From: Acidimicrobiales bacterium | Lineage (GTDB): Bacteria > Actinomycetota > Acidimicrobiia > Acidimicrobiales > Palsa-688 | Assembly: GCA_030039575.1 (NCBI GenBank) | Contig: JASHVH010000025.1 | Location: 1 to 7,910, forward strand | DNA: 7,910 bases | Direction: 5' to 3' | Shown: piece after piece, positions 2-7,910 of the stretch | Layout of the letters: the number at the start of each line of letters is the position of its first letter | Numbering within the stretch: the stretch's first letter is position 1 | Notes under the pieces: generated by a model | What the model was told of the DNA's origin: nothing | The model's input: only the letters and a program-made list of their open reading frames with translations | The model's database searches: none | Made by a program: the position numbers and the translations under genes

Positions 2-265
2 AGCTACCGCATCATCGTGGCGCGCAGTGCGGCCCGCCAATTGGCAGAGCGCCTGCCCGAAGCCGTCGCTGCGGCGTGCGTGGAGTTCATCTTCGGGCCC
101 CTGGCCGACGACCCCCACCAGGTCGGTGCCCCGTTACGGGAGCCGTATAAGGGCCTGTGGCGGGCGCGCCGGGGCGAGTATCGCGTGCGCTACCAGATAG
201 ACGACCACGACCGGACCGTGTACGTCCTGGACATCGACCACCGCCGGGATGCCTACCGAGGTTGA
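2..265 (+). CDS. RelE/ParE-family toxin, 5' end outside window
   Basis: The reading frame is open from the first complete codon in the window. The residues before the GTG at 17 (S-Y-R-I-I) already match the family's first beta strand, so the true start lies to the left and 17 is not the start. The visible 87 residues show the RelE/ParE fold order: beta strand, a helix with the pattern SAARQLAERLPEAVAAA, a GPL-DDPHQVGAPLRE turn, then the basic strands RRGEYRVRY (visible residues 56-64) and a C-terminal VLDIDHRRDAYR. Members of this family are small ribosome-dependent mRNA interferases or gyrase poisons. The basic residues in the last strands are the usual functional ones in RelE types. The cognate antitoxin would normally lie just upstream, outside the window. 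The stop is TGA at 263-265. The family call is firm; RelE versus ParE activity cannot be decided here. Confidence 0.88.
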   Translation, partial: SYRIIVARSAARQLAERLPEAVAAACVEFIFGPLADDPHQVGAPLREPYKGLWRARRGEYRVRYQIDDHDRTVYVLDIDHRRDAYRG

Positions 266-834
266 GGTCCGAAGGCCAAACAACGCCTCTATGCCCAGTG
301 GGCGGAGCGCCGGTTGTGCAAGCGCCACAAGGACACACGCCGGCCAAGCCGTCGGCCAGCCCTGGTCTCTGCTTCGCCAGCTCGGCGAACGCCGCCCTCT
401 AGCCCGCCGTGACCTGCCCAAGGCGGCGCCGTGGGCGCCGACAACCCGAGTAGGGACGGGCGGATCTGGGATCTGGCGCGTGAGGCCATGAACGAGGACA
501 CGCCCTCCCCAGGGTTCGCCCAAGGCCCTAGACAAGGTGGTGGCCAAGGTCTTCAGCCGGCCTGAGGGTTTCCGTCTCCTGTTGGGGACCCCCCGACTGG
601 ACGTGCCCCCGGTGCGGTGGGCCTATTCCGGTCCCGGCCAAGCACCCAGAGGCAGAGAACCCGTACTGCTACCGGCTCGACTACACGTAAGTTCTCGATG
701 AACTCGGCCACCCCACGGACCAATGCGGACCCTGGGAGAACCCGCTTGGTGACCGGCCCGAGCATGCGGCGCTCGGTCGCGCACACCCATACCAGCGTGG
801 GGACTTCGTGGGGCCATTAGGGCTTGGCAACCCG
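266..834 (+). pseudogene. Decayed coding remnant with zinc-ribbon-like end, unknown function
   Basis: No intact gene is visible here. On the + strand, protein-like stretches can be joined only by changing frame. The RelE frame continues past its stop, passes another TGA at 410-412, and reads VGADNPSRDGRIWDLAREA then MNEDTPSPGFAQ up to about 525. A second frame reads LDKVVAKVFSRPEGFRLLLGT from 528 to about 590. A third frame reads a CPRCGG knuckle (Cys codons at 604 and 613) with a third Cys at 667 and stops at TAA 688-690. The two frame changes fall at about 525 and 590. This pattern fits a broken small gene that ended in a Cys-rich, zinc-ribbon-like segment, but only three cysteines are visible and I do not recognise the family. 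From 691 to 834 I see no convincing gene. The similarity to the region left of the second tRNA remnant begins near 821. Confidence 0.3.
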
Positions 835-910
835 TGTCACCAGGTGGCAGCCACCGGCACGAAATGGCTCGTAAAATGTAGTTACATCCTTGTGACCAGG
901 GATTGCGACC

Positions 911-957
911 ACCTTGCCCAAGGTGAGGGTCGCGGGTTCGAATCCCGTCGTCCGCTC
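911..957 (+). repeat. tRNA-Gly(GCC) 3'-half remnant, attachment-site copy A
   Basis: The sequence matches the anticodon loop to the 3' end of a bacterial tRNA-Gly(GCC). It shows an anticodon arm ACC-TTGCCCAA-GGT, variable bases, a T-arm GCGGG-TTCGAAT-CCCGT and the acceptor 3' strand CGTCCGC followed by T. The anticodon loop carries one extra C, giving eight bases instead of seven. No 5' half (acceptor GCGGACG or D-arm) precedes it, so this is not a functional tRNA. A 3'-half tRNA duplicate starting at the anticodon loop is the classic footprint of a tyrosine-recombinase element, whose attP carries the tRNA 3' end. A broken integrase starts 113 bp downstream. A second copy lies at 6933-6978 with one substitution and one indel relative to this one. 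Confidence 0.85.
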
Positions 958-1002
958 GCAAAAGGGCAGGTCAGGGCCTATCTTGCCAGCTTCGTGCAAC
1001 TT

Positions 1003-1022
1003 GGTTGTCCATGGTTGTCCAT
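1003..1022 (+). repeat. Tandem direct repeat, 10 bp x 2, between att copy A and integrase
   Basis: The unit ggttgtccat occurs twice back to back and is followed by gg. It sits 45 bp to the right of the tRNA-Gly remnant and 48 bp before the integrase start. Short direct repeats flanking an att core are often arm-type binding sites for the integrase, so this is a plausible arm site. That role is inferred from position only. Confidence 0.5.
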
Positions 1023-1070
1023 GGCCCTCACCCTTCTGAACAACAAGGCCTTCCGGTACGGAGTAGCAGC

Positions 1071-1437
1071 ATGGCTGGCAGCATCCGCCTGAAAGATCAT
1101 CGGCCGAATGTATGGGAACTGCGGATCTACGTGGGCCGGGACTCGACCGGACGAGTCCGGCATCGGCAAGCGACCTTCCATGGCTCCAGGCGCCAGGCCC
1201 GAACGAGAACTCGCTCGTTTGGTAGCCGAGCAGGAGGCGGATCCCGCCGCTGTGCCCGAGGACCCGGTCGCATGGGGACCGACGACCACGGTCAATGACG
1301 CCATGGCTGCTTGGCGCGAAAACGGGTGGGAAGATCCTTCGCCCAAGACTACCGGCCGCTACGAGAGCTGCTGTGAGCGTCGACCGACGCCGACGGGCCG
1401 GTTCTCGAGCAGACACCGCAGGTCGTGGCTCCCCTGA
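1071..1437 (+). pseudogene. Tyrosine recombinase/phage integrase, N-terminal remnant, frameshifted
   Basis: The start is ATG 1071, preceded by GGAG at 1060-1063 with a 7-base gap. The first segment, of about 43 residues, reads MAGSIRLKDHRPNVWELRIY then VGRD-TGRVRHRQATFHGSRRQA. This is the N-terminal arm-binding domain typical of actinobacterial phage-type integrases. Near 1195-1205 the homology moves to another frame and continues with RELARLVAEQEADPAA, then TTTVNDAMAAWRENGWEDPSPKTTGRYE, which is the start of the SAM-like core-binding domain. Recognisable homology ends near 1370 and that frame stops at 1435-1437. The catalytic domain (Arg, HxxR, Tyr) is absent. Intact members are about 350-450 residues, so only about the first third remains. 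The gene is transcribed away from the adjacent tRNA-Gly remnant and converges on the regulator at 1492. It would be non-functional as a recombinase. Confidence 0.85.
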
Positions 1438-1491
1438 CGCGATAGCGAGCCCGCTGTGGAGGCATAGCCCCGCCTGATTCGAAACCCGCAA

Positions 1492-4248
1492 TTATCCCTC
1501 TAAATCGCGTCGCGCCTCATGGCGTTGCGCTTGAGCCGCTAGCTGCCCTCGGTTGCTGACGCCCAACTTATCGAACACGCTGCTCAAGTGGCTCTTGACA
1601 GTAGGAATGGAAATGAACAGGCGCTCTGCTATTTCGGCATTGGTCAGGTGCTGACCGACGAGGGACACGACTCTTTTTTCCGACTGGGTCAAGCTTTCCC
1701 AGCCAAACCGAGGCCGTGTGCGACTACCCCGTCCCCGGCCGGCATATTCGACGGCCTGATCGAACGCCAGCGCCCGTCCTTCACCCATCGACTGCTCGAA
1801 AAAGTCTTGTCCCAGGTTGGCTTGCAGCTCCGCCAGGACGGGTACCAGCTCTGCACCAGCGGGGACCGGTCGCACATAGCCCGTCACGTCCCGCTGGCGC
1901 TCGGCCGCCCCTACAAGCCGGACCGCTTCGTAGGGGCGCCCGAGGTCGGCGAGGGTAAGAGCTACTAGCTCCAACAACTCGATGGCGAATAGCAAGGAAC
2001 CGGCGTCATACGCCAAGCGAAGCGCGTCACAGGCCAGGCCGTGCGCTCGCTGGGGCTCCCCTTCGACGCGGGCGAACCTGGCTTCGACTCGTAGCCTCGG
2101 AACCGCCGCAGGTTGTTGGCCCGATGGCGCCCGGGAAAGGAATTGGGCAAATAAGCGCTTGGCTGAGGGTACGTCGCCGCGGTATAGAGCTGACTCCACG
2201 AGTTCAGCCTGGATGCCCACGTGCGCGCCCGTGACTCCGAGCGTGACAGACGTTTTCGTGCACGCGCGCTCGAGCACCTCGTAACCTTCGTCGACTTGCC
2301 CCAACCAGACCATCGCCTTCCCCTTTACGGCCTCCGCGGCCGTCATGCTGAAGAGGTCGCCAGTCGCCAAAGCGGCGGCGCGGGCACGCTCAGCAGCTAC
2401 AGGCGCGTCGTGGTCGGCCCGGTGGTAGCCGACCTCGCACCGAACGATCTCGGCCAGCACCGTTAGGATAGGGAAAGACTGCTCCTCGGCGAAGCGCAGC
2501 ACGACATCGGCTTCGTCCAGGGCCCGCTGCAGTTGCCCGGCCCATATCGCCACCAGGGCCAGTTGAGCTCGGGCGCCCATGGCGCCCCAGGCCCAACCGG
2601 CACTTTCGGCCACCCGGAGCGCTTCCTCGGCCGCCGCCACGGCATCCCTGTGCCGGCTCAGCCACTTATAAACGCCGGACTTGTGCACCAACCCCAGCGC
2701 GACCAGGTCGTACTGGCCGAGCCCGCGGGCCAGGGGCAGGGCCTCGTCGAGAATGGTTATCGTACGCTCCGGCTCGCTCAGCGAGTGGACGACAGCCTCG
2801 AGGGTCAGGCCGCGGGCCAGCACCGTTTGGTCCCCGAGCGAACGCCCCAGGGCGGTCAGTTCCTCGGCCAGGTGCAGCGACGAGGCTGGGTCCAGCTCCG
2901 CCGAGCACTGCGCCGCCCAGTACAGAACTTCAGCTCGCTCCTGCTGGCGCAGTTCAGCCGCCAACAGTTGCCGGCAACGGCTCAAGGCCTCGACCCGCAG
3001 GCCGCGCGTGTAAAACAAGGCACCCACCGCGCCCATCAGCTGGGCGCCTCGGTGGAGCTGCTTTGACTGGACCGACCAGTCAAGTGCAGAACGAACGTTG
3101 TCCAGGTCGGCATCCAGGGTGCGGAGTGAGCCCGCCAGGTCGTTGGTCCAATGTTTCGGGCCGACAGTCTTGGCCAGTTCAGTGAAGTAATCGAGGTGAC
3201 GGTCCCGCCAATGGGAACTGGCGCCGCACGCGTCAAGAGCGCCGGCGCAGTAGTCGCGCATCGTCTCGTGCAACCGGAAACGGTCCTGTTTGGGCAGGGC
3301 TTGGACAAGCGACTTTTCGACGAGGGACGTCAGCAACCCGAATACGTGGGCACGCTCGACCTCTTCGTCAGCGCAGACAGCCTCGGCACCGGCGAAGGTG
3401 AACCCCGGGGTGAAGACGGCCAAGCGGTGTAATAAGGCGCGCTCGTCGTCCGTCAGGAGGTTGCAGCTCCACTCGATCGAAGCCAACAGCGTCTTATGGC
3501 GGGCCGGGACAGTCCGTCCCGTCCCTGCGAGGACGCGAAAACCGTCCGAGAGCTCTCGGGCGATGGCGTCGACACTCATCATGCTGGCTCGGGCGGCGGC
3601 CAGCTCTACGGCCAAAGGGATGCCGTCCAGGCGTTCGCAGATGCTCGCCACGGCCAGGGCTTCGTCTTCTGTCAAGGAAAAGTCGGCGCGGTCCAGGCGA
3701 GCCCGCTCAATGAAAAGCGTTCCCGCCTCCGAGCGCTCGAGCGAACTCCTTGCGCCTGTGGCCGGGCGTTCCGGGAGCGACAGACCACCCACACTCACTA
3801 CGACCTCACCAGGGACACCGAGACGCTCGCGCGAGGTGGCGAGTACCCGCACGCCCGGACAGTCCCGCAAGAGGAGATGAACCAGTGCGGCGCAGCCCTC
3901 GATCAGGTGCTCACAGTTATCGAGCAGGAGCAAGAGGTGGTGGTCGGACAGCTGCTCGGCCAATGCGCCAAGCGCCGGCCGGCCCCGGAGTTCTGCCAGC
4001 CCGAGGTTACTGCGAACGGCGTCGGGCACCAGAGCCGACTTGGACAGTCCGGACAAATCGACAAAGCAAATCGTGCCCGGACGGGCGGGCACGTCTTGAT
4101 GCCCGACCTCTATAGCGAGACGGGTCTTACCGCACCCCCCGGGCCCGACGAGGCTGACGAGTCGGTGGGCGGAGAGCCGTCTGCCGACCAGCTCGATCGT
4201 GGAGCGACGTCCGATGAAGTTTGTCAGCTGGTTCGGCAGCGCTGCCAT
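1492..4248 (-). CDS. STAND ATPase LuxR-family transcriptional regulator with TPR-like region
   Basis: This is a large intact regulator of 918 residues from ATG 4248. The frame opens at GTG 4284, directly after an in-frame TAG, which would give 930 residues. I prefer the ATG because the family begins with a short MxxLPxQLTxFIGR leader, matched here by MAALPNQLTNFIGR. Neither start has a strong ribosome binding site. With the ATG as residue 1, a P-loop GPGGCGKT lies at 35-42, a Walker B stretch LLLLLDNCEH at 105-114, an ATSRERLGVPGE motif near 137-148, and GIPLAVELAAARA at 209-221. A winged-helix-like segment follows, then a long helical TPR-like region from about 390 to 830. A C-terminal LuxR/GerE helix-turn-helix lies at about 850-910 (LTQSEKRVVSLVGQHLTNAE, with TVKSHLSSVFDKLGVSNR). 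Such proteins are thought to be ATP-dependent switches in the cytoplasm that bind DNA after sensing a ligand through the TPR part. The target and ligand are unknown. It is divergent from the propeller gene at 4474, which is a natural candidate target. Confidence 0.93.
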   Translation of the reverse strand: MAALPNQLTNFIGRRSTIELVGRRLSAHRLVSLVGPGGCGKTRLAIEVGHQDVPARPGTICFVDLSGLSKSALVPDAVRSNLGLAELRGRPALGALAEQLSDHHLLLLLDNCEHLIEGCAALVHLLLRDCPGVRVLATSRERLGVPGEVVVSVGGLSLPERPATGARSSLERSEAGTLFIERARLDRADFSLTEDEALAVASICERLDGIPLAVELAAARASMMSVDAIARELSDGFRVLAGTGRTVPARHKTLLASIEWSCNLLTDDERALLHRLAVFTPGFTFAGAEAVCADEEVERAHVFGLLTSLVEKSLVQALPKQDRFRLHETMRDYCAGALDACGASSHWRDRHLDYFTELAKTVGPKHWTNDLAGSLRTLDADLDNVRSALDWSVQSKQLHRGAQLMGAVGALFYTRGLRVEALSRCRQLLAAELRQQERAEVLYWAAQCSAELDPASSLHLAEELTALGRSLGDQTVLARGLTLEAVVHSLSEPERTITILDEALPLARGLGQYDLVALGLVHKSGVYKWLSRHRDAVAAAEEALRVAESAGWAWGAMGARAQLALVAIWAGQLQRALDEADVVLRFAEEQSFPILTVLAEIVRCEVGYHRADHDAPVAAERARAAALATGDLFSMTAAEAVKGKAMVWLGQVDEGYEVLERACTKTSVTLGVTGAHVGIQAELVESALYRGDVPSAKRLFAQFLSRAPSGQQPAAVPRLRVEARFARVEGEPQRAHGLACDALRLAYDAGSLLFAIELLELVALTLADLGRPYEAVRLVGAAERQRDVTGYVRPVPAGAELVPVLAELQANLGQDFFEQSMGEGRALAFDQAVEYAGRGRGSRTRPRFGWESLTQSEKRVVSLVGQHLTNAEIAERLFISIPTVKSHLSSVFDKLGVSNRGQLAAQAQRHEARRDLEG

Positions 4249-4318
4249 TGGCTTACCGGTCGTGTCCCCACCGACGCCGCGCACCTAACGGCGGCCGGTC
4301 GCCATCCAGCGCGAAAAG

Positions 4319-4346
4319 ATCATACCTCACCACCCGTTCTTCCAAC
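4319..4346 (-). promoter_or_regulatory. Candidate promoter for the LuxR-type regulator
   Basis: On the - strand a good -10 hexamer TATGAT (4324-4319) lies 16 bases from GTTGGA (4346-4341), or 15 bases from TTGGAA (4345-4340). Transcription would begin near 4312 and leave a leader of about 64 bases before ATG 4248. The -10 is strong by consensus and the -35 only moderate. No other similarly good match was found in this divergent gap. Confidence 0.4.
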
Positions 4347-4383
4347 TTCCGTCGGATGTTTGTGCGGGCGTAGGCGCTGATTC

Positions 4384-4413
4384 TTGGAATACCCGGGCAA
4401 GTCGAACAGTGAT
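4384..4413 (+). promoter_or_regulatory. Weak candidate promoter for the FG-GAP protein gene
   Basis: TTGGAA at 4384-4389 is followed after 18 bases by AGTGAT at 4408-4413, a poor -10 match. The TTGGAA hexamer is the inverted complement of TTCCAA at 4340-4345 in the opposing promoter, so the two hexamers could also be half-sites of a shared regulator. Position in the divergent gap is the main support. Confidence 0.2.
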
Positions 4414-4473
4414 CTCCATCAACCACTACGGGCCCTCTCGTGACCACAACTGTGCCAAGGAGAGATCGAAACA

Positions 4474-5772
4474 GTGACCAACAGAACTATTCCAGCCGAA
4501 AGAGCCGAGCACAAGCGCATCGCTGGGCTCAAAGCAGTCCTTCATCACAACCCTTCAGCGACGGGGGCTCGCCTACGGCGGCCACGCCAAGTCGTGCGCA
4601 GCCCTCGGCGTCAGTCCTGGTTGCTGGTCGCGAGTTCGGTCGTTTTACTGTCGGTGACCGGGGGTGGGCTACCCGGTCGTGTCACGACGCGGCTGGGCGC
4701 GGTCACGCGGCCCATGCCGCTCGACCCCGAGGGCTTGCGGGCGGGCGCCGCCTTCGGCACTTCGGTGGCCATAAACGGAAACCTCGCCGTGGTCGGTGGG
4801 CCCTTCCAGGCCGGGGGCCTGGCTTACGTGTACGCCCCGAAGAGCGGGGGTTGGCGGCAGACTGCCGAGTTGCGCGGGGAGGACACGCGTCCCGGTGACT
4901 TCTTCGGAGGCGCCATAGCGGTAAAGGGCCGAACCATTGTGGTCGGGGCCGACGTCCACGACGGCGCGACGGGCCGGGCGTACGTTTTCACCGAGGAGAG
5001 CGGAAGTTGGCGCCAGATCGCCGAACTGAAAAACACCGGCCCAGGACGCGCCAGCGGGTTTGGCTTGTCGGTTGCGGAAGGGGCGGGGACGATTGTGGTC
5101 AGCTCGGCCGGAGCAGCCGTGGTCTTCACCCGGGACCGCCGGGGCTGGCGGCAGGCTGCTCAGCTCCACCTCCAAGGCGCCAGCACAGACACCAGCTTCG
5201 GGTTTTCGGTCGCCGCTTCCGGCCCGCTCGTCGTGGTCGGCGACCCGGGGGCCACGGGCGGCGCGGGCCGGGCTTATGTGTTCGGCACCACTCGGCACGG
5301 CTGGCGCCAACTTGCCGAACTGGCGGGCTTGGACACCAAACCAGGCGACAACTTCGGCTTCTCCGTGGCGGCTGGCGCGGGCCGGGTCCTGGTCGGCGCT
5401 CCCTGGCATGGCGCCGGCGCCGCCTATGTGTTCAGCCCGGCCCACCAGCGCTGGCACCAAGTCGCCGAGATCACCGGCCCAGACAGTCGGGTGGGCGACC
5501 AGTTCGGCTCGAGCGTGGCCCTAGATGCCGGCCTGGCGGTGGTCGGCGCTCCCTCGCACCGTGCCGGCGCGGCCTACGTGTTCAGCCCCTCCCGCGAGGC
5601 CTGGCACGAAATCGCCGAGATCACCCCGCCCGGCGCCTCCCGCAGCGATTTCGGGATCGCCGAAGCCGTCTCCGGGGCCACTGTGGTGACCGGTGCAAAC
5701 GCGTACCATAACGGAACCGGTGCCGCCTGGGTCACCAATGCGATATCAGGGCACGTCGCCTATGGGCGCTGA
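4474..5772 (+). CDS. Exported or membrane-anchored FG-GAP_2 seven-bladed beta-propeller protein
   Basis: The start is GTG 4474, supported by AAGGAG (4457-4462) 11 bases upstream; the product is 432 residues. Residues 1-47 are basic and polar. Residues 48-64 (SWLLVASSVVLLSVTGG) form one hydrophobic segment, either a long signal peptide or an N-terminal membrane anchor. The rest is seven repeats of about 50 residues with FG at 94, 144, 196, 242, 294, 344 and 393. Each follows the pattern D-FG-SVA-....-VVVGAP-...-G-AYVF-...-W-Q-AEL, which is the FG-GAP_2 type, and seven copies make one closed beta-propeller. The DxDxDG calcium loop of integrin-type FG-GAP repeats is absent. Blade 3 is the most divergent, with VVSSAG in place of VVGAP. 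No catalytic domain or cell-wall sorting motif is visible, so a binding or scaffold role outside the membrane is likely but unproven. The gene is divergent from the LuxR-type regulator, with a 225-bp gap to ATG 4248. Confidence 0.9.
   Translation: MTNRTIPAERAEHKRIAGLKAVLHHNPSATGARLRRPRQVVRSPRRQSWLLVASSVVLLSVTGGGLPGRVTTRLGAVTRPMPLDPEGLRAGAAFGTSVAINGNLAVVGGPFQAGGLAYVYAPKSGGWRQTAELRGEDTRPGDFFGGAIAVKGRTIVVGADVHDGATGRAYVFTEESGSWRQIAELKNTGPGRASGFGLSVAEGAGTIVVSSAGAAVVFTRDRRGWRQAAQLHLQGASTDTSFGFSVAASGPLVVVGDPGATGGAGRAYVFGTTRHGWRQLAELAGLDTKPGDNFGFSVAAGAGRVLVGAPWHGAGAAYVFSPAHQRWHQVAEITGPDSRVGDQFGSSVALDAGLAVVGAPSHRAGAAYVFSPSREAWHEIAEITPPGASRSDFGIAEAVSGATVVTGANAYHNGTGAAWVTNAISGHVAYGR
5391..5589 (+). repeat. 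Nucleotide-level duplication of propeller blades 5 and 6
   Basis: The stretch 5391-5439 is closely matched by 5541-5589, exactly 150 bases (50 codons) later. Both begin ggtcggcgctccct and end in a tgttcagccc segment encoding AAYVFSP. The other blades resemble each other mainly at protein level. Blades 5 and 6 therefore look like the youngest duplication, or one kept alike by gene conversion. Confidence 0.6.
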
Positions 5773-5945
5773 AGACAAACGGCACCCGGGAACCGGGAGG
5801 ACCGAGCGCATTTCAACGGCGGCAGCTCCTCGAAAGCCCACTCCTCGCCCGCCGGCAGGACAGGTGCAGAAGAAACGAGCACCGGGACCACCACGATAGA
5901 AATACTGCCACGGGTTCTTCGGGCTCGCGATAATTGTTCTTGCAT
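5760..5945 (-). CDS. Possible small exported peptide, 61 residues
   Basis: ATG 5945 on the - strand has a full AGGAGG ribosome binding site (5960-5955) with a 9-base gap, the strongest such site in this stretch. The 61-residue product begins MQEQLSRARRTRG, continues with a hydrophobic run SISIVVVPVLVSSAPVLPA and then GEEW. This resembles a signal peptide with a basic n-region, an h-region and small residues before a possible cleavage at about residue 32. The remainder would be about 29 residues with two cysteines (residues 46 and 57). I recognise no family. The 3' end overlaps the last 13 bases of the FG-GAP gene on the opposite strand, so expression of one could affect the other. The start signal is good, but no homology supports it and the other two frames here are also open. 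Confidence 0.35.
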   Translation of the reverse strand: MQEQLSRARRTRGSISIVVVPVLVSSAPVLPAGEEWAFEELPPLKCARSSRFPGAVCLQRP

Positions 5946-5987
5946 AGGGGTTTTCCTCCTCTGTCGCGAGGGTTTTGGCTTGTCACC

Positions 5988-6009
5988 CCCGAGTGTGCCA
6001 ACACTCGGG
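5988..6009. promoter_or_regulatory. Perfect 22-bp palindrome, candidate operator or leader hairpin
   Basis: The arms cccgagtgt (5988-5996) and acactcggg (6001-6009) are exact reverse complements separated by gcca. No T-run follows on either strand, so it is not a standard terminator. It lies 27 bases upstream of the AGGAGG of the small - strand ORF, where it could be an operator for a dimeric repressor or a hairpin in the leader. It does not match the CIRCE element. Confidence 0.55.
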
Positions 6010-6291
6010 CCCTCACGGCAGGGCGAGGAGCCCTTTTGCCTTCCGCTCCCATTTCCCACCGGGTCTGTCTCCCATTACGGCGCCGGCCCGCGGAGGGCCC
6101 GTCACGCAGGAGCTGCGAAGCGCTCCTTCATGACATCAGTTATCTTCAGTTCGGAAAGTAAAAGCCCTTGTAGGGGCGGGTGTTTTGCTGTGTGTACATG
6201 TCCTCGCCGCGACCATGATAAGAGCAATCAAGACCCCCGGGACGGGCGTCTCACTCCATTGTGGCGTCGCGGCAGTCCTGGCAGCGCCGTC

Positions 6292-6332
6292 GTCAAGGCC
6301 AAGCCCTCCGGGCGGCTTGCAGCCGCCTTGAC
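6292..6332. repeat. REP-like imperfect palindrome
   Basis: The outer arms gtcaaggc (6292-6299) and gccttgac (6325-6332) are exact complements. The inner arms caagcc (6300-6305) and ggcttg (6314-6319) can extend the stem with a bulge. Alternatively ggcggct (6311-6317) and agccgcc (6321-6327) make a tight hairpin with a three-base loop. No T-run follows. It resembles a single REP-type intergenic palindrome; only one copy is present in the window. Confidence 0.5.
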
Positions 6333-6479
6333 AACGGCTCGGTGAAGACAGTGGCGTAGATAACGCGCACTCGCCCGGGCTAAAAGGCTCCCTCGTGTGC
6401 AGAGAAGACACCCGAAAGTGGACTGGAGATAACGACGGTTCTCGCGGCAGACCCGTTCAATTTGCTTAGGAAATGACGC

Positions 6480-6802
6480 TACATAATCGTCAGCACGTAA
6501 CGCCAGAGATAATAATGCCCGTCCAAGCGTACTTGGCGCGCGTTGTCGCTCGCAGGTCGCTCCGCGCTTTGAGCCAGCCTCCGGCATAAGAGTGCAGGCT
6601 TTCCTTCCCCGGTTGCGGTCGACCCAGGTGCCGCGCCCGAGGTCAGTCTGCGGCTTTGCAAGCCAAGCGTTGGCATCAGCTTTGGTGGTGAACGTCGTTG
6701 GCGCGCTCAGCCAGGCCCCCTCGTAACGGTGGCGAGCTCGGTACCGGCCGGAGGGCAGCTTCTCAACGCTGCCGAACTGCCTCCCTGCTCCCGTTGGCCA
6801 TC
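6480..6802 (-). pseudogene. Second tyrosine integrase, N-terminal remnant, frameshifted
   Basis: A likely start is ATG 6802 (MANGSRE), after which the frame shifts near 6785-6797. Positions 6603-6790 then encode RQFGSVEKLPSGRYRARHRY, SAPTTFTTKADANAWLAKPQ and TDLGRGTWVD. This is the well-known N-terminal domain of actinobacterial prophage integrases, with the usual RTxxxAxxWL and GTWVDP-like signatures. A second shift near 6595-6605 moves the homology to the next frame, where 6523-6588 encodes YAGGWLKARSDLRATTRAKYAW, the beginning of the core-binding domain. Recognisable homology ends near 6500, and the catalytic domain is missing. It is not the same subfamily as the remnant at 1071. It is transcribed away from the tRNA-Gly copy at 6933, with 130 bp between the core and the start. 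It cannot encode an active recombinase. Confidence 0.85.
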
Positions 6803-6932
6803 GAAGCGAGGGTAGCTGTTCATGGAACAACGTGGGACAGTGACCCGGCAAGCAGTGACACCGGGTGGCAGCAATCGGCAAGAACTGTCCTAGTGAGAGC
6901 CATTGCACCCCTATTGCGCAGCGACATGTTTT

Positions 6933-6978
6933 ACCTTGCCAAGGTGAGGGTCGCGGCTTCGAATCCCGTCGTCCGCTC
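6933..6978 (+). repeat. tRNA-Gly(GCC) 3'-half remnant, attachment-site copy B
   Basis: This is a 46-bp copy of the same tRNA-Gly 3' half as at 911-957, in the same orientation. The anticodon loop is the normal seven bases TTGCCAA, but the T-arm has a G-to-C change (GCGGC opposite CCCGT) that breaks one pair. There is no 5' half. Upstream, 6842-6884 resembles 821-863 with the same spacing to the core. It marks an element end, and the second integrase remnant lies just to its left. Confidence 0.85.
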
Positions 6979-7153: not shown

Positions 7154-7670
7154 TCATCCCGAGGTGCGCCCGGGACGACGACGGAGGAACTCACGTAAGG
7201 CCGGCAGAGACCGGATGTCCTTTTCTCGACCGGCCGCCTCCTTGGAGCGCACAATGTCCTCGACACTGGCGGCAAGTGCGCGTTGGTTGCCGACCTGGAT
7301 CTGTACGGCTTCCGGTAGTAGGTCAGCGTACCCGGCAGGTGTGGCCGCAGGGACGAACACAAGGTCAAAGTCGCCCGCCGAGCACGTCAAGTTGAGGATC
7401 TGTTTGACCGGCGAGGGAATTGGCATCGTGAGCGAATGGCAGGCCTTCCTCGACCTCGACGACACGGACCCGAGCACCGAGCTCATCCAGGGCGTCGGAG
7501 AGCCGCCGAAGGTTCTCAGTATCCCTCTTTGGGGTTAGGTCGATGTCGAACGTGGCGTCCACCTCCGCTCCCTGCGCGATAGCGGCGAAGGCGCCGACCA
7601 CGACGTACTCGACGCCGTGGCGATTGAGTACAGCCAGGATGTCCTCGGCGGCAAGTGCTCGGCGCTTCAC
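7154..7670 (-). pseudogene. Nucleotidyltransferase (AbiEii/MNT-like toxin-type), frameshifted
   Basis: The start is GTG 7670, overlapping the stop of the XRE gene by four bases (GTGA), so the two are translationally coupled. The first frame runs 88 residues with homology: ILAVLNRHGVEYVVVGAFAA, then ATFDIDLTPKRD. This is the polymerase-beta-type nucleotidyltransferase core with the catalytic pair D42 and D44 (DID). The usual GG before it is G-A here. Homology then passes to the next frame near 7409-7412, where one extra base (a G in ccgg) breaks the gene. It continues as VKQILNLTCSAGDFDLVFVP, which carries the expected third acidic residue, then ASVEDIVRSKEAAGREKDIR, and ends at TGA 7154-7156. 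Joined, it is about 171 residues, a normal length. Relatives act as toxins that add nucleotides to tRNA or other targets, paired with an HTH antitoxin. Without correction the product lacks its third catalytic Asp. A sequencing error is possible. Confidence 0.75.
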
Positions 7671-7910
7671 CGTGTCCGGACGTTGGCCGCGAGCTGGGCC
7701 ACATTGCGACGGTGCCGGTTCTCCGCGAGCACTTGCTCTCGGTGGCCGCGTTTGGCCTGGCGACGCTCAAGGACCTTGTCGTGGTCATCCAGTGGTGCGA
7801 GGTGGAACCGCAGTTCGACCCCGGCGCCAGCCAGGATCTTCTGCAGCGTTGGGATCGACGGCTCTCTTTTGCCGCTCTCGATCCGGGCCACCTCCGACTG
7901 CGACACGCCC
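7667..7910 (-). CDS. XRE-family HTH protein, antitoxin-like, 5' end outside window
   Basis: The frame is open to the right edge. The Val codon at 7906 is preceded in frame by Gly, and the visible sequence starts inside helix 2-3 of the helix-turn-helix. The start is therefore outside, and GTG 7906 is internal. Visible residues: VSQSEVARIESGKREPSIPT, then LQKILAGAGVELRFHLAPLD, the DNA-recognition part of an XRE/Cro-type domain followed by the usual LxxxGxEL strand. A charged tail of about 40 residues (DDHDKVLERR...) follows. The stop TGA 7667-7669 overlaps the nucleotidyltransferase start. Cytoplasmic DNA-binding protein, probably the autorepressing antitoxin of the pair; the pairing is inferred from the overlap and the domain combination. 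Confidence 0.82.
   Translation of the reverse strand, partial: GVSQSEVARIESGKREPSIPTLQKILAGAGVELRFHLAPLDDHDKVLERRQAKRGHREQVLAENRHRRNVAQLAANVRTR

Follow-up and report, generated by a model that had tools for sequence, protein, structure and literature searches.

The window analyzed here, 7,910 bp long, is the whole of contig C476 from the metagenome-assembled genome (MAG; 565 contigs, 68% complete) of an Acidimicrobiales bacterium. In it, two copies of the 3′ half of a tRNA-Gly(GCC) gene, at 911..957 (copy 1) and 6933..6978 (copy 2), both on the + strand, bracket 6 kb of DNA that carries a LuxR-type regulator gene and an FG-GAP propeller gene. We conclude that the two copies are probably attR-type attachment (att) junctions of at least two elements integrated in tandem at one tRNA-Gly gene, and that the 6 kb between them is probably a decayed unit resembling a cis-mobilizable element (CIME). 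The original prediction for this DNA had presented the regulator/propeller pair as cargo of one island at tRNA-Gly. Integration at tRNA-Gly(GCC) is well supported, but a single island with two ends is not what the junctions indicate. One insertion gives one intact tRNA and one 3′ fragment (Islander, PMC4383910). Both ends of the 6-kb unit are 3′ fragments and neither is a rebuilt tRNA, so at least two tandem elements are the simplest reading. On this reading, two such elements meet at copy 1, and the second of them ends at copy 2.

The two copies share 45 of 46 bases in the same orientation, as predicted, and differ by one inserted C, carried by copy 1, and one G/C substitution; the longest exact run common to both is 21 bases (counted by eye). 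When the block is shortened to 41 bases and up to three mismatches are allowed, the window gives two matches and 200 shuffles give none. Neither copy has a 5′ half, again as predicted: their 5′ flanks are not D-arm sequence, and neither ARAGORN nor Rfam calls a tRNA in the window, by which a hidden whole tRNA was also rejected. The starting point, previously placed at the anticodon loop, lies slightly earlier. A whole tRNA-Gly(GCC) query matches from query position 44/45, which puts the first base of the copies at tRNA position 28/29, on the 5′ side of the anticodon stem. On the integrase side of copy 1, the core flank at 958..976 (+ strand) resembles the flank that follows the intact tRNA-Gly of a relative (G004), with 92.8% identity between window 910-976, core included, and positions 4836-4903 of the G004 locus L055; the 15 bp left of copy 2 agree with the distal copy of the same relative at 12 of 15 positions by eye. 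A T-loop pattern (up to three mismatches), applied in search of a third core between the copies, matches four times, at the two copies and at an overlapping pair at 1473-1488; this pair is not claimed as a core, as 10 of 200 shuffles also give four matches.

The intact tRNA contains the corresponding block of 46 bp, and this block, from which either copy departs by one change, is an attachment core. It occurs exactly in six IMG/VR viral contigs. No tRNA is called around the block in five of them, and the sixth holds an intact tRNA-Gly at that place. Four of the five tRNA-free cores have a PF00589 integrase frame that overlaps the block or lies within 233 bp, the fifth being only 120 bases from the end of the examined stretch, and in all five the likeness to the tRNA ends at most 1 base left of the block (by eye). 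We identify the block as a core because five of six viral copies stand without a tRNA and four of those five lie beside an integrase. In published cases, the common core at a tRNA gene typically measures 30-45 bp and takes in the tRNA 3′ half (PMC10865867). Matches to the core also occur in 10 phage records (best match 91%; seven unannotated and two with a whole tRNA-Gly) and in 135 plasmid records at 80-99%.

The DNA left of both copies looks like the arm of an attachment site. The stretch at 790..909 (+ strand), which we interpret as the attP-type right arm of an element to the left, matches another contig of the same genome, C384: window 792-947, which takes in part of the core, is 87% identical to it over 156 bp. 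Within this arm, a 41-bp block at 826..866 (+ strand) ends 44 bp left of the core of copy 1, and its counterpart at 6847..6887 (+ strand) ends 45 bp left of copy 2; the two agree at 33 of 41 positions, a score that none of 1000 dinucleotide shuffles reaches. C384 itself is a third 3′ fragment junction with the homologous arm block, and after its core comes an integrase frame that is open over 374 aa (PF00589, E 2.8e-15). The idea that the arm might be a general phage motif was set aside: an 18-base pattern matches 12 viral contigs, but the tRNA core is in none of these, an integrase match is in the examined stretch of just one, and we read the matches as chance.

Broken tyrosine integrases on the inner side of each copy had been predicted and are borne out as N-terminal, att-proximal pieces that start 107 bp and 129 bp from the cores. 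The left pseudogene (1065..1371, + strand) lies in two frames, of which 1065-1199 (frame 3) corresponds to residues 48-92 and 1162-1371 (frame 1) to residues 78-149 of a 449-residue integrase frame at locus L125, each with 58% identity. The right remnant (6803-6600, - strand) aligns at 59% identity with residues 7-74 of a different, 390-residue integrase frame at locus L113. Both reference frames have PF00589. The integrase catalytic domain has no match anywhere in the window. Pfam scans of the frames crossing the pieces return nothing at E values up to 1, and PHROGs gives an integrase match at E 0.3 for the right piece and none for the left. Because these profile searches give next to nothing, the identification as integrases relies on how the pieces compare with intact relatives. 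In seven of nine fetched loci, the match to the right piece starts 88-141 bp beyond an intact tRNA of the same strand; matches to the left piece start 69-93 bp after an intact tRNA in five of nine; within the own genome, a left-type piece with 71% identity lies just after an intact tRNA-Thr(CGT). Separately, window 6344-6448 is 74% identical over 105 bp to positions 2001-2105 of contig C184, about 190 bp upstream of another integrase frame.

The arrangement could have arisen as follows. An element whose attP core reproduces the tRNA 3′ half over 46 bp would recombine with the tRNA gene, such that the tRNA is rebuilt and the displaced 3′ half moves to the far end of the element. A further element using the same core would then give the array tRNA-E1-core-E2-core. 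At copy 1, the core stands between an arm-like block on its left and an integrase start on its right; the core of copy 2 has both the same arm block and an inward-reading integrase start on its left. That a unit of only 6 kb holds remnants from two different integrase families suggests a fusion of two elements by deletion, or an exchange of ends in one element, around the regulator and propeller genes that survived.

The wider setting was examined by DNA comparison over 61 genomes, the own genome included. The intact tRNA-Gly(GCC) gene, which the original prediction had proposed to seek further out, is not found in the own assembly, where only 3′ fragments were detected. Relatives do have it, and in three of them a 3′ half-copy also lies downstream on the same contig and strand, at distances of about 8.3 kb (G004), 11.4 kb (G048) and 18.2 kb (G033). 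The left junction used as query matches 58 of the 61 genomes, mostly through the tRNA, and all 19 loci fetched from that search (L035-L053) hold an intact tRNA-Gly(GCC). A survey of 35 further loci outside the own genome, fetched because they matched, yielded 11 cores outside a called tRNA, comprising eight clean internal half-copies in six genomes, one beside unread bases (L058) and two at contig ends. In the one-contig genome G033, the distal copy is accompanied on its inner side by a 424-residue integrase frame on the opposite strand, which is the order seen at copy 2. Eight clean half-copies in six relatives and three in the own genome show that elements have integrated at tRNA-Gly(GCC) repeatedly within this bacterial order. 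Near the distal half-copy of G004, positions 14459-18372 of L055, to its right, contain three pieces of another integrase spread over 4 kb, as if split by insertions.

Several observations weigh against the tandem interpretation. With the intact tRNA-Gly(GCC) missing from the assembly, the head of the array is not seen, and no empty site was found. The right integrase lies 5′ of its core on the opposite strand, unlike its relatives, whose starts are on the 3′ side of an intact tRNA. Left of the arm of copy 1, no integrase match was found. The core at C384 is scrambled in its 3′ part, and the arm was not found outside the own genome among the matches listed. The likeness of G004 to the order at copy 2 is imperfect, the distal integrase there having no N-terminus. 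An integrase match within 250 bp accompanies only three of the eight clean half-copies (L055, L062 at 2064, and L063) and none of the other five. Finally, a whole-tRNA query gives one full-length match of at least 95% in G033 and one in G037, both of them one-contig genomes, but G039 has three intact tRNA-Gly(GCC) genes, so the gene is not always single-copy. We therefore dropped single-copy status as a general support, and because the copy number varies, the junction at C384 does not have to belong to the same array. It is the three genes of G039 and the five of eight half-copies with no integrase nearby that slightly lower our confidence in the tandem reading.

That the unit is one single element with two integrases of its own, whose rebuilt tRNA was later lost through deletion of the 5′ half at the left end, would fit two direct copies flanking one unit with integrase starts at both inner ends. 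We consider it improbable, since the DNA left of copy 1 is an arm with 87% identity to C384 and shares the 41-bp block with the arm of copy 2; these matches mark it as the end of another element and not as trimmed host DNA. Less probable still is the notion that the copies are merely the product of decay or duplication of ordinary tRNA-Gly genes, with no tie to integration. Both fragments are indeed non-functional, and the five clean half-copies of relatives with no integrase match within 250 bp would suit it, but both window copies start within a base of the point at which the five tRNA-free viral cores start, both stand beside arm-like blocks and integrase starts, and three relatives have a half-copy downstream of an intact tRNA. 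We give an equally small chance to a misassembly that joined two different half-tRNA junctions. Repeats of this kind do break assemblies, and this MAG is fragmented and incomplete, but an exact run of just 21 bases is the longest that the copies have in common, and both cargo frames are intact.

The cargo of the unit consists of these two divergent genes. The regulator (1492..4284, - strand) is an intact frame of 930 aa encoding a LuxR-type protein with an NB-ARC/AAA ATPase (PF00196 and PF13401 score above cut-off, and PF00931 falls just short of it), and a profile search matches it to the ATPase region of AfsR. The second gene (4474..5772, + strand), also an intact frame, encodes a 432-aa FG-GAP protein (PF14312) that matches integrin alpha and is predicted by AlphaFold2 to form a seven-bladed, integrin-like propeller (mean predicted local distance difference test score (pLDDT) 79.5, predicted template modelling score (pTM) 0.79, residues 1-72 below a pLDDT of 50, blades counted by eye); this fold has no bearing on the junctions. 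The regulator may control the propeller. Relative to their closest paralogues, both genes differ most at third codon positions (0.46 against 0.24 and 0.18 at positions 1 and 2 for the regulator, 0.52 against 0.32 and 0.32 for the propeller), the pattern expected for genes that were under selection. A literature search found no paper joining at least three of the terms FG-GAP, LuxR, divergent transcription and beta-propeller.

The regulator is expanded in its own genome, with 13 matches at E values up to 1e-60; none of 60 relatives has more than six (only the 14 best candidates of each genome were scored). Its best paralogues align with it over most of their length at 66, 60, 52 and 50% identity, and relatives reach at most 42% among the matches listed; a genome scan with the regulator alignment, in which the own genome may not be represented, finds mycobacterial and other relatives at 32-44% among the best 80 matches. 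A divergent pair of propeller and ATPase-type regulator recurs on contig C92 of the own genome (L101 44-4178), where no tRNA is called, and in relative G067 (L108 2088-7232), whose regulator is 35% identical to that of the window. The C92 pair lies beside genes that we take to be trmD, rimM and ffh. According to the original prediction, occurrence of these genes in related genomes with no link to tRNA-Gly would refute the island, and this is partly the case: the closest homologues, on C92 for the propeller and on C484, C405, C340 and C201 for the regulator, are on contigs with neither a tRNA call nor a listed match to the tRNA-Gly half. As these homologues are paralogues from the same genome, the cargo types are not tied to tRNA-Gly, and the junctions are not undone. 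On C405, which carries the 60% paralogue, a tyrosine integrase and an open frame that by eye resembles a serine recombinase were also noted (L095 461-1591 and 10768-11553).

A further reading, to which we assign a low probability, is that the unit is a chimeric cassette formed by exchange between tandem elements, with two unrelated integrase families sharing the 46-bp core and one arm type, and that it is still movable in trans by the C384 integrase. Were this true, the lineage-expanded regulator and its integrin-like propeller partner would travel as att-flanked cargo.

Outside the two copies, the window holds a ParE-type toxin gene on the left (17..265, + strand; PF05016, E 5e-11) and, on the right, a nucleotidyltransferase-like gene with an XRE regulator (7365..7906, - strand; PF10706 and PF19502 below cut-off, PF01381 above). 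These may be toxin-antitoxin-like stabilizers. DNA matches to the right-hand pair occur in 14 of the 61 genomes (own included) and are mostly short, which marks the pair as accessory; with this pair in place and no conserved synteny, the region right of copy 2 was rejected as a conserved host flank.

A decayed tandem at a tRNA gene is an arrangement of known kind. Tandem arrays at one tRNA have been described for islands (PMC4383910), for actinomycete integrative and conjugative elements (AICEs; PMC3218068) and for integrative and mobilizable elements (IMEs) with CIMEs (PMC5704250), and Table 1 of the Islander paper counts 125 tandems of two or more islands and four of three or more (PMC4383910). 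The unit resembles an Islander tRNA-gene island with an anticodon-type site A, in which the 3′ fragment runs from the anticodon stem-loop onward, and differs from the islands described there (PMC4383910) in that this contig has neither the intact tRNA gene nor a working integrase. The Islander pair of an intact tRNA and a same-orientation 3′ fragment is found in G004, G048 and G033, and in the 68%-complete own assembly only the 3′ fragments are seen; in place of an integrase open reading frame the unit has N-terminal pieces, the open frame being at C384. Attachment at a tRNA gene is likewise shared with actinobacterial temperate phages and AICEs, for which tandem integration at one tRNA is known (PMC10865867, PMC3218068). 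Unlike these, no phage structural or AICE gene was recognized among the window proteins searched: PHROGs returns regulators, a RelE-like toxin, unknowns and the marginal integrase match for nine window proteins, with no structural or lysis gene, and no transfer gene appears among those scanned (nine with Pfam, nine with PHROGs). Closest is the CIME in tandem accretion at a tRNA gene (PMC5704250), with which the unit shares its retained att sites, the loss of integration genes and a place in a likely tandem at a tRNA 3′ end. The unit departs from the CIMEs portrayed there in having no intact partner element on the contig and remnants of two integrase families within it. Flanking att sites are retained here as two cores with homologous arm blocks, the parent block being attP-like in viral contigs, and both integrase genes are truncated, with no catalytic domain left to match. 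The mechanism is already textbook; the value of the window lies in a worked case, a clear example of the way in which elements probably accumulate at one site and then decay, with intact cargo left behind between the att sites that survive, and in a lead on the propeller/regulator pair. The bracketed unit best fits a CIME-like remnant, a likeness that rests on retained att sites and lost integration genes and not on ancestry from an integrative and conjugative element (ICE) or IME.
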